Source: Defluviimonas salinarum
Lineage (GTDB): Bacteria; Pseudomonadota; Alphaproteobacteria; Rhodobacterales; Rhodobacteraceae
Reading direction: 5' to 3'
NCBI RefSeq assembly: GCF_026013545.1
Contig: NZ_JAPDOG010000003.1
Span: 124,001-188,000 of the forward strand
Length of the DNA: 64,000 bases
Shown: one piece after another, positions 55,936 to 63,886 of the stretch
Numbering within the stretch: the stretch's first letter is position 1
Layout of the letters: each line of letters opens with the position of its first letter
The notes under the pieces: model-generated
Database searches by the model: none
The model's input: the letters and a program-made list of their open reading frames with translations, nothing else
Told to the model about the DNA's origin: nothing
Translations under genes and position numbers: made by a program

Positions 55936-55939
<4 letters not shown>
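55331..55939 (-). CDS. nuoJ: NADH-quinone oxidoreductase subunit J
   Basis: Membrane subunit of complex I, 202 residues with five helices. Conserved parts: [53 protein letters not shown], with the pi-bulge helix (helix 3) that moves on quinone reduction. It lies between the CMD gene (four-base overlap, 55936-55939) and the nuoK leader. The soluble C-terminal tail is short. Confidence 0.95.
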
Positions 55940-57873
<1,934 letters not shown>

Positions 57874-60606: not shown

Positions 60607-61902
60607 TTATTCCGCCGCCATCGCGCCCGTGCGGCCCGTACGCTTCGCCTTGATCCGGTCCTCGATCTCGCCGCGGAAATGGCGGATGAGGCCCTGGATC
60701 GGCCAGGCGGCGGCATCGCCGAGGGCGCAGATCGTGTGGCCCTCGACCTGCTTGGTGACGTCGAGGAGCATGTCGATCTCCTCGACCTCTGCCTCGCCCT
60801 TCACCAGCCGGTCCATGACCCGCATCATCCAGCCGGTGCCTTCGCGGCAGGGCGTGCACTGGCCGCAGGACTCGTGCTTGTAGAACTTCGAGAGCCGCCA
60901 GATCGCCTTGATGACGTCGGTCGACTGATCCATCACGATCACGGCGGCGGTACCGAGGCCCGAGCGCTGCTCCCTGAGCCAGTCGAAGTCCATGATCGCG
61001 TCGTCGCACTGGGCCGCGGTCAGCATCGGCACCGAGGAACCGCCGGGGATCACCGCCTTGAGGTTCTTCCAGCCGCCCCGGACCCCGCCGCAGTGCTTCT
61101 CCAGAAGCTCCTTCAGCGGGATCGACATCGCCTCCTCGACGACACAAGGGTTGGCGACATGGCCGGAGATGCCGAAGAGCTTGGTGCCGGTGTTGTTCGG
61201 CCGCCCGAAGGAGGCGAACCAGTCCGCGCCGCGGCGCAGGATCGTCGGCACGACGGCGATCGATTCCACGTTGTTCACCGTGGTCGGGCAGCCGTAAAGC
61301 CCCGCGCCGGCCGGGAACGGCGGCTTCATCCGCGGCATGCCCTTCTTGCCTTCGAGGCTTTCCAGAAGTGCCGTTTCCTCGCCGCAGATATAGGCGCCGG
61401 CGCCGTGGTGGACGTAGATGTCGAAGTCGAAGCCCGACTTGCAGGCGTTCTTGCCGACGAGCCCGGCGTCATAGGCCTCGTCGATCGCCGCCTGCAGCGC
61501 CTCGCGCTCGCGGATGTATTCGCCGCGGATGTAGATGTAGCAGGCGTTCGCGCCCATCGCGAACGAGGCGATCAGGCAGCCCTCGATCAGCGTATGGGGA
61601 TCATGGCGCATGATCTCCCGGTCCTTGCAGGTGCCGGGCTCGGATTCGTCGGCGTTGACGACGAGATAGGACGGGCGGCCATCCGACTGCTTCGGCATGA
61701 AGGACCACTTGAGGCCGGTGGGGAAGCCCGCCCCGCCCCGGCCGCGCAGGCCCGACGCCTTGATCTGGTCGATGATCCAGTCGCGGCCCTGCTTCAGGAT
61801 GCCGGCGGTGCCGTCCCAGTGGCCGCGCTTCTTCGCGCCGGCCAGGGTCCGGTCATGCATCCCGTAGAGGTTGGTAAAGATCCGGTCCTGATCTTTCAGC
61901 AT
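60607..61902 (-). CDS. nuoF: NADH-quinone oxidoreductase subunit F
   Basis: The FMN/NADH-binding subunit, 431 residues. NADH and FMN sites: [36 protein letters not shown] and [17 protein letters not shown]3 cluster ligands are in [13 protein letters not shown] and a later Cys (TICALGD). Receives electrons from NADH and passes them to NuoE/NuoG. Start ATG 61902 is followed by the DUF5337 gene upstream (stop at 61912). It is the last standard subunit before the accessory small genes. Confidence 0.96.
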
Positions 61903-61911
61903 GTCAAATCC

Positions 61912-62142
61912 TCATTCCCCCTGGCGCTTTTGACGCCGCCAGATCCGCCAGGTTACAACCAGCGCCCAGAAGAACGCGGCCAAAGCTGCCAGGTCGAACA
62001 GAACGGCGTAACGGTCGCCCGGCCCGACCAGCCATTGCGCGCCGAGCCACAGAAGACCCGTGGCGGCGATCACCACCGCCACCCCCCGCGCTTCCCGCGC
62101 GAGCCCCTGGTCCTTCTGGTTCGGTGCGCCCATCGAACTCAC
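61912..62142 (-). CDS. DUF5337-type membrane protein of the nuo operon
   Basis: A 76-residue protein with two hydrophobic segments (VAVVIAATGLLWLGAQWLV and YAVLFDLAALAAFFWALVVTWRIWR) and a short polar N-terminus. The overall pattern of two helices around a short loop with a conserved GxR is typical of the DUF5337 family, which I recall as Rhodobacterales-specific and located in nuo operons. A GTG start at 62142 overlaps the stop of the gene before (GTGA); an ATG at 62133 is equally possible. It may be an accessory membrane subunit of complex I; no direct evidence. Confidence 0.7.
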   Translation of the reverse strand: MSSMGAPNQKDQGLAREARGVAVVIAATGLLWLGAQWLVGPGDRYAVLFDLAALAAFFWALVVTWRIWRRQKRQGE

Positions 62143-62813
62143 TCACCGCGCGCCGCGCTCGCGGCGCGCTCTGAAAACTCGGTCTGGCCGCCACGGGCCA
62201 GGATCTTTGCCTGCTTCACCCACTCGTCGCGGGTGATGCGGCCGTGAAAGCCGACCATCAGGCTGTCGACGAAGGCGATATCCCGTGCCTTCCACGACGC
62301 GATCTGGTCGAAGTGCCAGATCCCGATCTCGTTCAGCTGCTCTTCAATCGCCGGCCCCACGCCCTTGATCAGCTGCAGATCGTCAGCCCGCCCGCGCCGC
62401 GGGGCCGCGAGCCGTTCCGGCGACGCGGCCGGCACCCGCTCCTTCGACTTGGCGAGCGCCGCATCGAGCCCCGTGCTCGCCGCGGAAACACCCTGCGCGA
62501 CCTTCCGCAGATCGTTGGCCACCGGCCGGGTCTCAACGGGCTCGTCCTCTTTCGCGTCCTTCTCAGGCTCCGGCCTTGCGTGCGTGACCGGCACGGCCGC
62601 GACCTGCTCCGCGCGGCCGCAGAATGACCAGACGAAGACCAGACCGAGCGCGGCGAAGACAGCGAGCCCCGCAACGAGGGAACCGGCGACGGGAATCTGC
62701 GCCACATACACGAGCACCAGCGCCACGAGCACACCGCCCGCGGCCGCCACGGCCCATGTTGTGCGGCGGCAAGCCGCCCGTGCAGTCCCCGACATCGCTC
62801 CCAATCCCGTCAC
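62139..62813 (-). CDS. Membrane protein with NuoE-type C-terminal module
   Basis: A 224-residue protein, N-terminal two membrane helices (WAVAAAGGVLVALVLVYVAQ and VAGLAVFAALGLVFVWSF, about 20-65), then a charged linker, and a C-terminal module of about 70 residues: LQLIKGVGPAIEEQLNEIG, then HFDQIASW, and DEWVKQAKILARGGQTEF. The same module ends NuoE. KGVGPxxE is a helix-hairpin-helix-like signature. The GTG start at 62813 is five bases after the nuoE stop; ATG 62795 with GGGAG upstream is an alternative. Probable partner or assembly factor of complex I. Confidence 0.75.
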   Translation of the reverse strand: MTGLGAMSGTARAACRRTTWAVAAAGGVLVALVLVYVAQIPVAGSLVAGLAVFAALGLVFVWSFCGRAEQVAAVPVTHARPEPEKDAKEDEPVETRPVANDLRKVAQGVSAASTGLDAALAKSKERVPAASPERLAAPRRGRADDLQLIKGVGPAIEEQLNEIGIWHFDQIASWKARDIAFVDSLMVGFHGRITRDEWVKQAKILARGGQTEFSERAASAARGE

Positions 62814-62818
62814 GATCC

Positions 62819-63886
62819 CTAGTAGACGTCGCCCTTCTCGACCCGCGCCGAGAACTCGGTATCACCGCCCGCGGCCAGAAGCTTCGCCTGCTCCACCCAG
62901 CCGTCGCGGCTCGCCCGCCCCTTGAAGCCCTCGAGGTTCTCGTCGACCCAGGCCAGTTCCTCGGCCGTCCAGGCGGCGATCTGGTCGAAATGGTAGAAGC
63001 CGAGGCTGTTCAGAAGCTCCTCGAGCTTCGGCCCGACGCCCTTGATCTTCTTGAGGTCGTCCGCCCCGCCCTCCCGCGCAACGTCGAGCGCCTGCGGCCG
63101 TTTCGCCGCGCCGGCAGCTTTCGCGGGCGCCGGTTTCGCTTCGGCCTTGGCGGCGGCCTTTGAGGCGGGCTTCGCTGCCTTGCCGAGCCACGGCGTCAGG
63201 AGCGGCACCTCGGTCCCGTCGATCCGCTTCAGCGTGTCGCCGATATCGGTCGCGAGCTGGACGGAGGCGTTGTGCTTCGCCTTGCCGGCCTCGTATTCGG
63301 TGAGGCTCGTCAGCCCCGAAAGCGGCTCGGAGGCGTAGCGGCCATTCTGCGGACCCGGCACCGGCACCTTGCCGGCGGCCATGTCGTCGAGGAGCTTCGC
63401 GAAGCTCTCCGCCGTCAGGTCCTCGTAATAGTCCTTGCCGATCTGGGCCATCGGCGCGTTGGTGCAGGCGCCAAGGCACTCGACCTCTTCCCAGGAGAAC
63501 TTGCCGTCGGCCGAGAGCTGATGCGCCTGAGGCGCGATCTTCTCCTTGCAGACCTTGATCAGGTCCTCGGCCCCGCAGATCATGCAGGACGTGGTGCCGC
63601 AGATCTGGATATGGGCAACAGAGCCAACGGGTTGCAGCTGGAACATGAAGTAGAACGTGGCCACTTCCAGCGCCCGGATATGCGCCAGCCCCAGCATGTC
63701 GGCGACATGCTCGATGGCTGCGCGGGAAAGCCAGCCCTCCTGCTCCTGCGCGCGCCACAGGAGCGGGATGACCGCCGAGGCCTGCCGGCCCTCGGGGTAT
63801 TTCGAAATCTGGCCCTCCGCCCAGGCGAGGTTCGCGGGCGTGAAGGCAAAGCTGTCCGGTTGAACCGGGTGAAGACGGCGCAACAT
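62819..63886 (-). CDS. nuoE: NADH-quinone oxidoreductase subunit E with C-terminal extension
   Basis: The 24-kDa-type subunit carrying the [2Fe-2S] N1a cluster, in a 355-residue form, much longer than E. coli NuoE (166). Ligands Cys 96, 101, 137 and 141 in CGTTSC and CLGAC. After about residue 190 comes a variable segment, an Ala/Lys/Pro-rich linker (about 245-272) and a C-terminal module (about 275-350): [27 protein letters not shown] and [15 protein letters not shown]. The module recurs in the next gene. Its start overlaps the nuoD stop (TGATG). Confidence 0.94.

Follow-up and report, generated by a model that had tools for sequence, protein, structure and literature searches.

A helix-hairpin-helix-like C-terminal module shared by NuoE and a neighbouring protein-O-type membrane hairpin protein in Defluviimonas salinarum and related Rhodobacteraceae

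Protein-O is a subunit of the RC-LH1 complex of Dinoroseobacter shibae, and its gene lies between nuoE and nuoF. In the accessible text of its description (PMC12079452) a disulfide bond between Cys10 and Cys59 is placed on the cytoplasmic side, the C-terminal domain is said to resemble the C-terminus of NuoE, and function and origin are both given as unknown. A second relative is chain a of the LH1-RC structure 9wqv from Rhodovulum sulfidophilum, for which no paper was found in the open-access literature. Complex I of Paracoccus denitrificans has also been solved; the available part of the report (PMC11522691) names no hairpin protein of the protein-O type among its four added subunits, and the NuoE of that structure has 239 residues and ends without the module treated here. 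A module of this kind is found as well in the phasin PhaH of Caulobacter, for which the portion of a review at hand (PMC13052382) gives an N-terminal end that binds PHB granules and a helix-hairpin-helix (HhH) C-terminal end reported to bind DNA non-specifically.

We analysed a window of 64,000 nucleotides, part of one contig (NZ_JAPDOG010000003.1, positions 124,001 to 188,000) of the 5.0 Mb genome of Defluviimonas salinarum. A gene located between nuoE and nuoF, here called the accessory gene, is the counterpart of the protein-O gene (Table 1). The GTG start of the accessory gene follows the nuoE stop after only 5 nt, and the gene ends in a 4-nt overlap (GTGA) with the GTG start of a DUF5337 gene. 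DUF5337 was present at 134 of the 145 nuo loci scored below and is more constant there than the accessory gene.

Table 1. Features of nuoE, the accessory gene and the genes that follow in the D. salinarum window; residue numbers are those of each protein.
Feature	Coordinates	Strand	Description or basis
nuoE	62819-63886	(-)	355 aa; thioredoxin-like [2Fe-2S] core, then a disordered linker rich in A, K and P, then the C-terminal module
NuoE linker, about residues 236-275, A/K/P-rich	63062-63181	(-)	sequence and pLDDT
NuoE C-terminal HhH-like module, 66 aa	62864-63061	(-)	profile match E 2.6e-38
Accessory gene, protein-O orthologue, 224 aa	62139-62813	(-)	GTG start; ATG 18 nt further in
Two-helix membrane hairpin of accessory, residues 9-71	62601-62789	(-)	AlphaFold model and VIA-align
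Accessory Cys15 to Cys65	62619-62771	(-)	where protein-O has its Cys10-Cys59 disulfide
Accessory linker, about residues 72-143	62385-62600	(-)	mostly low confidence
Accessory C-terminal HhH-like module, 66 aa	62187-62384	(-)	profile match E 5.3e-36
DUF5337 gene, GTG start	61912-62142	(-)	PF17272 E 2e-24; between accessory gene and nuoF
nuoF	60607-61902	(-)	next after the DUF5337 gene

With 173.7 bits for TIGR01958 and 593 bits for NF009040, the window NuoE exceeds the membership cut-offs of both families (142.4 and 514), and its modelled core resembles chain 8qby_E (Z 15.4, rmsd 4.3 over 179). The model of the whole protein is weak (mean pLDDT 70.1, pTM 0.33), with a stretch of pLDDT below 50 at residues 234-258 of the linker and block values of 83-96 in the module region (residues 261-340). 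In the AlphaFold model of the accessory protein two helices, at residues 9-36 and 42-71, stand ahead of the module, and pLDDT by block is 91-97 at residues 11-60, 78 at 61-70, 51-60 along the linker (71-130) and again 91-97 in the module (131-220). An earlier note, made from the sequence of this stretch, had described NuoE and its downstream neighbour as ending in the same module, in the neighbour behind two membrane helices, and both the adjacency and the helices are borne out. The likeness itself is far beyond chance: the two proteins align by BLASTP with 51% identity over 115 aa (E 1e-33), an alignment that takes in part of both A/K/P-rich linkers, and the modules alone are 62% identical over 73 aa.

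The note had also called the module HhH-like, and this agrees with what profile and structure searches returned. Pfam HHH_5 matches it with E 0.0014, although at 19.5 bits it stays below the gathering threshold of 27. The predicted fold of the module in the accessory model resembles the N-terminal HhH domain of RadA (Z 7.5, rmsd 2.6 over 61) and the AR2 repeat of NusA in complex with SuhB (Z 7.4, rmsd 2.5 over 63), bearing in mind that VIA Z values below 8, as both of these are, may mean merely a common arrangement. Sequence likeness to these two is weak: the module profile finds the RadA sequence with E 0.42, and NusA was absent among the matches listed by the profile search with the module. 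Foldseek alone gave no match to the accessory model at E 0.001 or better.

In sequence, the best PDB match of the accessory protein is the Rhodovulum chain 9wqv_a (phmmer E 5.8e-31), and chain O of the D. shibae RC-LH1, 8yy9_O, is matched with E 2.9e-28. VIA-align fits the hairpin to 8yy9_O at Z 8.1 (rmsd 0.8 over 52), pairing accessory residues 13-65 with 8-59 of 8yy9_O in a range that spans the Cys pair, and to 9wqv_a at Z 7.8 (rmsd 2.0 over 65). The accessory gene is orthologous to the protein-O gene, as it has the gene position, the hairpin with its Cys pair and the C-terminal module of that family; with the D. shibae protein it shares in addition the long linker. The core of the shared-module observation is therefore already in print for D. 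shibae, since PMC12079452 reports, in its accessible text, the same position and the likeness to NuoE. The two proteins are not the same in everything, however: the window accessory module is identical to that of D. shibae protein-O at 39 of 66 positions (the module found in one of the sampled genomes, G030, is identical at 66 of 66), the window genome has no match to the linker motif described below and, above all, it has no match to a reaction centre. PF00124 gave no match at E 0.001 in this genome, which is 99.97% complete, so that the accessory protein cannot serve an RC-LH1 there, and its being a photosynthetic subunit in this organism was ruled out. The Rhodovulum chain a is likewise similar to the accessory protein in sequence and hairpin and differs from it as a component of LH1-RC. 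Two cysteines spaced by 40-60 residues around the hairpin were seen in 61 of 93 accessory proteins, those of non-phototrophs included, and many of them show by eye a CxxxCW motif.

NCBIfam profiles tie the module to the tails of ribosomal proteins L21 (NF008915) and S2 (NF008966) and of PhaH (NF045508). In alphaproteobacterial L21 and S2 the same module is carried on an A/P/K-rich linker, in different genes and behind unrelated N-terminal parts. Both window modules are matched by the PhaH profile in its C-terminal part, that of NuoE with E 3.1e-21 and that of the accessory protein with E 7.6e-15, indicating homologous modules; the N-terminal part is unmatched in the window proteins, and the whole profile reaches 76.6 and 55.7 bits against a cut-off of 250 with only its C-terminal half matched. 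Of 134 genomes sampled across the class, 13 have the module (E 1e-6 or better). Its hosts there were, by eye, NuoE, L21, S2, proteins like protein-O and further proteins, most of them membrane proteins. Some caution is due with profiles such as NF009040 (NuoE), which match unrelated proteins, below the cut-off, via the module tail. A third copy in the D. salinarum genome was noticed in L006 (1147-1746, contig C6), in a protein with one hydrophobic N-terminal stretch.

The residues of the two hairpins are well kept. In each host class looked at, G8-x-G10-P11 of the first hairpin and G48, R49, R52, W55 and Q58 of the second are conserved at 80% or more, and conserved basic residues occur in the second hairpin in all host classes and in the first in most NuoE and accessory modules. 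The mean net charge of the module is mildly acidic (-2.2 in NuoE, -1.3 in the accessory protein and -2.7 in L21), which is unusual in a DNA-binding domain and comes closer to the acidic repeats of NusA.

We have surveyed 150 genomes of the same family, representing 149 genera. NuoE was found in 147 of them, the other three giving no match at E 1e-40. A total of 147 loci were read (146 regions plus the window), and 145 were scored after two that lie at contig ends (L127 and L262) had been dropped. Genomes with PF00124, 56 of the 150, were taken as phototrophs. Both tails were present at 83 loci, the NuoE tail only at 36, the accessory module only at 10 and neither at 16, an association with an odds ratio of 3.7 (Fisher p 0.006 for the 145 loci, kinship ignored). 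These counts support an evolutionary link between the NuoE tail and the accessory module that is not obligate, and they rule out a strict complex I rule by which the tails would always go together. The co-occurrence of the two, for which the earlier note had proposed a check, was thus found in part: the tails are linked beyond expectation and the accessory gene is by no means absent from most genomes with a long NuoE, since 83 of the 119 tailed NuoE have a module-bearing accessory, but the other 36 lack one. Counted with or without its module, the hairpin gene stands at 106 of the 145 nuo loci (44 of 54 in phototrophs and 62 of 91 in non-phototrophs), 13 of which, scored by eye, have a hairpin gene without module.

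Module-bearing accessories are commoner in phototrophs (42 of 54) than in non-phototrophs (51 of 91; Fisher p 0.012). Independent pairs were also drawn from a tree of NuoE plus NuoF, the values being means over 200 random choices. Among 36 pairs differing in phototrophy, the module-bearing accessory favours the phototroph in about 11.3 against 2.8, whereas the NuoE tail favours the non-phototroph in about 9.6 against 3.0; among 20 pairs differing in the NuoE tail, the accessory goes with the tail in 7.9 against 3.0. The accessory tracks phototrophy, then, and the NuoE tail does the reverse. This speaks against the proposal, made in the earlier note, that the pair is specific to complex I, as does the presence of the module at the end of L21, S2 and other membrane proteins, the fact that the solved relatives of the accessory protein are RC-LH1 subunits and the short, module-less NuoE in the solved complex I of P. 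denitrificans.

To compare the modules of the two genes we used 145 pairs, 83 from the family loci and 62 from the best 80 named loci among the matches listed. These 80 were ranked by their match to the full-length query, tail included, and for this reason they were used only for the pair statistics and for the structure alignments, to which 48 accessory and 45 NuoE sequences of the 62 pairs contributed. Module identity was 70.9% within genomes and 67.3% between genomes; in the 140 non-redundant pairs the values were 70.7% and 67.2% (z 10.8, with none of 20,000 permutations as high). In the same 140 pairs the within-genome identity exceeded the nearest-relative value by 2.5 points, 84 pairs being higher and 51 lower (Wilcoxon p 5e-4), and subtypes of hairpin length covary, with 111 concordant and 29 discordant pairs (odds ratio 5.7, p 4e-4). 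The clearest case by far among the eight most similar pairs, the only ones for which DNA tracts were viewed, is that of genome G094, where nuoE and the accessory gene are 97-100% identical in nine consecutive bins of 30 nt, a nearly identical tract of 270 nt that begins 60 nt ahead of the module and extends 210 nt into it. The edge bins are at 73% and 87%, and the five bins that cover 240 to 91 nt upstream are at 30-57%.

The NuoE module has its best accessory match in its own genome in just 14 of 145 pairs. In the module tree the NuoE and accessory modules fall partly into separate groups, with 47 label changes where shuffling gives 69, and own-genome pairs are sisters in 4 of 83 cases. Set against the within-genome excess, the few own-genome best matches and the partial split of the tree make the exchange look recurrent and not continuous. 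At locus L299 (G167) NuoE and the accessory protein both carry, by eye, a module of another subtype that resembles the one of L21, as though the two had been replaced together.

The likeness extends into the linkers. A motif of 21 residues, KPSxxLxGxxELAxRKGxWxY, is found in many accessory linkers, and a pattern search that allowed up to three mismatches recovered it in 28 of 93 module-bearing accessories, in 8 of 13 module-less hairpin proteins and in the NuoE linker at 8 of 147 loci. Where NuoE has the motif and an accessory gene is present, the accessory shares the motif in 7 cases out of 7 (Fisher p 3.4e-4). A profile search of the 150 genomes gave 49 matches in 37 genomes, 8 of them in NuoE and 40 in accessories, including the module-less hairpin gene of L199 in G052 and, in G120, a module-bearing hairpin protein that comes right after a NuoE-type tail. 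The single match elsewhere (L364, 1720-2721, G030 contig C1) lies near the N-terminus of what is by eye an ABC-transporter-like ATPase. The profile search of the window genome found its NuoE/accessory pair to be without the motif. Taken together, the likeness of modules and linker motif between the two genes exceeds what descent would give and, judged from sequence comparison, repeated exchange appears to be its best explanation. The excess seen within genomes is small, and gene conversion between neighbouring genes can be neutral. Two minor observations on this subject are a DxTG[IV] motif in 29 of 119 NuoE linkers and a permease-like frame (by eye) adjoining that of the ABC-transporter-like ATPase of G030.

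NuoE sits at the tip of the peripheral arm of complex I. We tentatively lean to the view that the mobile HhH module acts as a general cytosolic tether on two bioenergetic complexes and would most likely be a weak, non-specific binder of nucleic acid. The accessory protein is a hairpin in the membrane whose two ends would both lie in the cytosol, an orientation taken from the D. shibae structure, followed by a flexible linker and a putatively (HhH)2-like domain, and NuoE bears that domain too, on a flexible linker of its own at the tip of the arm. If the module binds nucleic acid weakly and without specificity like the PhaH tail, complex I would be tethered via NuoE, and RC-LH1, or some other membrane complex in non-phototrophs, via the hairpin protein, and the tethered complexes might be kept near the nucleoid or near transcription and translation. 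Both tails would then do the same job with the same partner, and they would not need to bind each other. Nucleic acid is suggested as the partner because the PhaH tail is homologous and ribosomal proteins L21 and S2 are hosts, and tethering is favoured by the conservation of hairpin residues across host classes and by the RadA-HhH-like fold.

A different partner is suggested by the acidic charge of the module together with its likeness to NusA AR2. The acidic repeats of NusA bind proteins, and the tail could act as an adaptor of the NusA-AR kind, recruiting a soluble partner protein common to NuoE, protein-O, L21, S2 and PhaH, a set of hosts whose diversity would suit such an adaptor. We find this unlikely, however, considering that the NusA and RadA matches are tied in Z, that basic residues are conserved in the hairpins and that DNA binding is what has been reported for the PhaH tail in the review text available. 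The docking or assembly pair proposed in the earlier note, in which the modules of NuoE and of the accessory protein would bind each other and the hairpin protein would hold complex I or help to assemble it, could account for the tight gene arrangement, the co-occurrence of the tails, the within-genome likeness of the modules and the motif shared in all seven cases. Against it stand the 36 tailed NuoE without a module-bearing accessory, the 10 accessories beside a tail-less NuoE and the 13 hairpin genes without module, to which are added the accessory's tracking of phototrophy, unlike the NuoE tail. The one-sided loci, the RC-LH1 home of the relatives and the many other hosts weaken a dedicated docking, and we regard it as improbable.

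It could also be argued that the accessory protein is a relic, an RC-LH1 subunit that by chance is encoded in the nuo operon and lingers after photosynthesis has been lost, its tail copied from NuoE by neutral gene conversion. The RC-LH1 membership of the relatives in D. shibae and R. sulfidophilum, the higher frequency of module-bearing accessories in phototrophs and the missing reaction centre of the window genome all fit with this origin. The window gene, however, keeps an intact frame, the hairpin fold and the Cys pair, the gene is retained in 62 of 91 non-phototrophs, and the Cys pair 40-60 residues apart is at least as frequent in accessories of non-phototrophs (39 of 51) as in those of phototrophs (22 of 42), which makes a mere relic doubtful. 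Going back to tethering by a nucleic-acid-binding tail, a more elaborate version would be an exchangeable kit of linker motif and HhH module that tethers complex I and a hairpin-anchored complex to the nucleoid or to a shared scaffold, with conversion keeping the tails matched. We consider this version quite improbable, more so than any of the alternatives above; were it true, the energy-converting membrane would be physically connected to the genome or the ribosomes.

What is new here is the within-genome likeness of the modules, the near-identical tract of 270 nt and the shared linker motif; no description of the exchange between nuoE and the accessory gene or of the motif was found in the accessible portion of the open-access literature. 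The hairpin gene of the protein-O type turns out to be widespread at nuo loci, non-phototrophs included, and its tail, which seems to be traded with NuoE, is a homologue of the reportedly DNA-binding one of PhaH. The function of protein-O now becomes a question for the bench, namely whether a respiratory or photosynthetic complex bears a tail that binds nucleic acid or a scaffold.

At 10 of the 145 loci (L119, L120, L122, L155, L168, L201, L220, L225, L226 and L244) a third protein with the module, not a hairpin protein, is encoded downstream of the accessory gene and before DUF5337 or nuoF. Its N-terminal half gave no clear Pfam family match at any of the 10 loci. By eye it had been taken as phasin-like, a label that we dropped as no phasin Pfam family matched any of the ten, and the NCBIfam PhaH profile matches only their linker and tail. 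Within the nuo operon of the window itself, a frame at 55936-56526 looks by eye like a carboxymuconolactone decarboxylase/AhpD-like protein.
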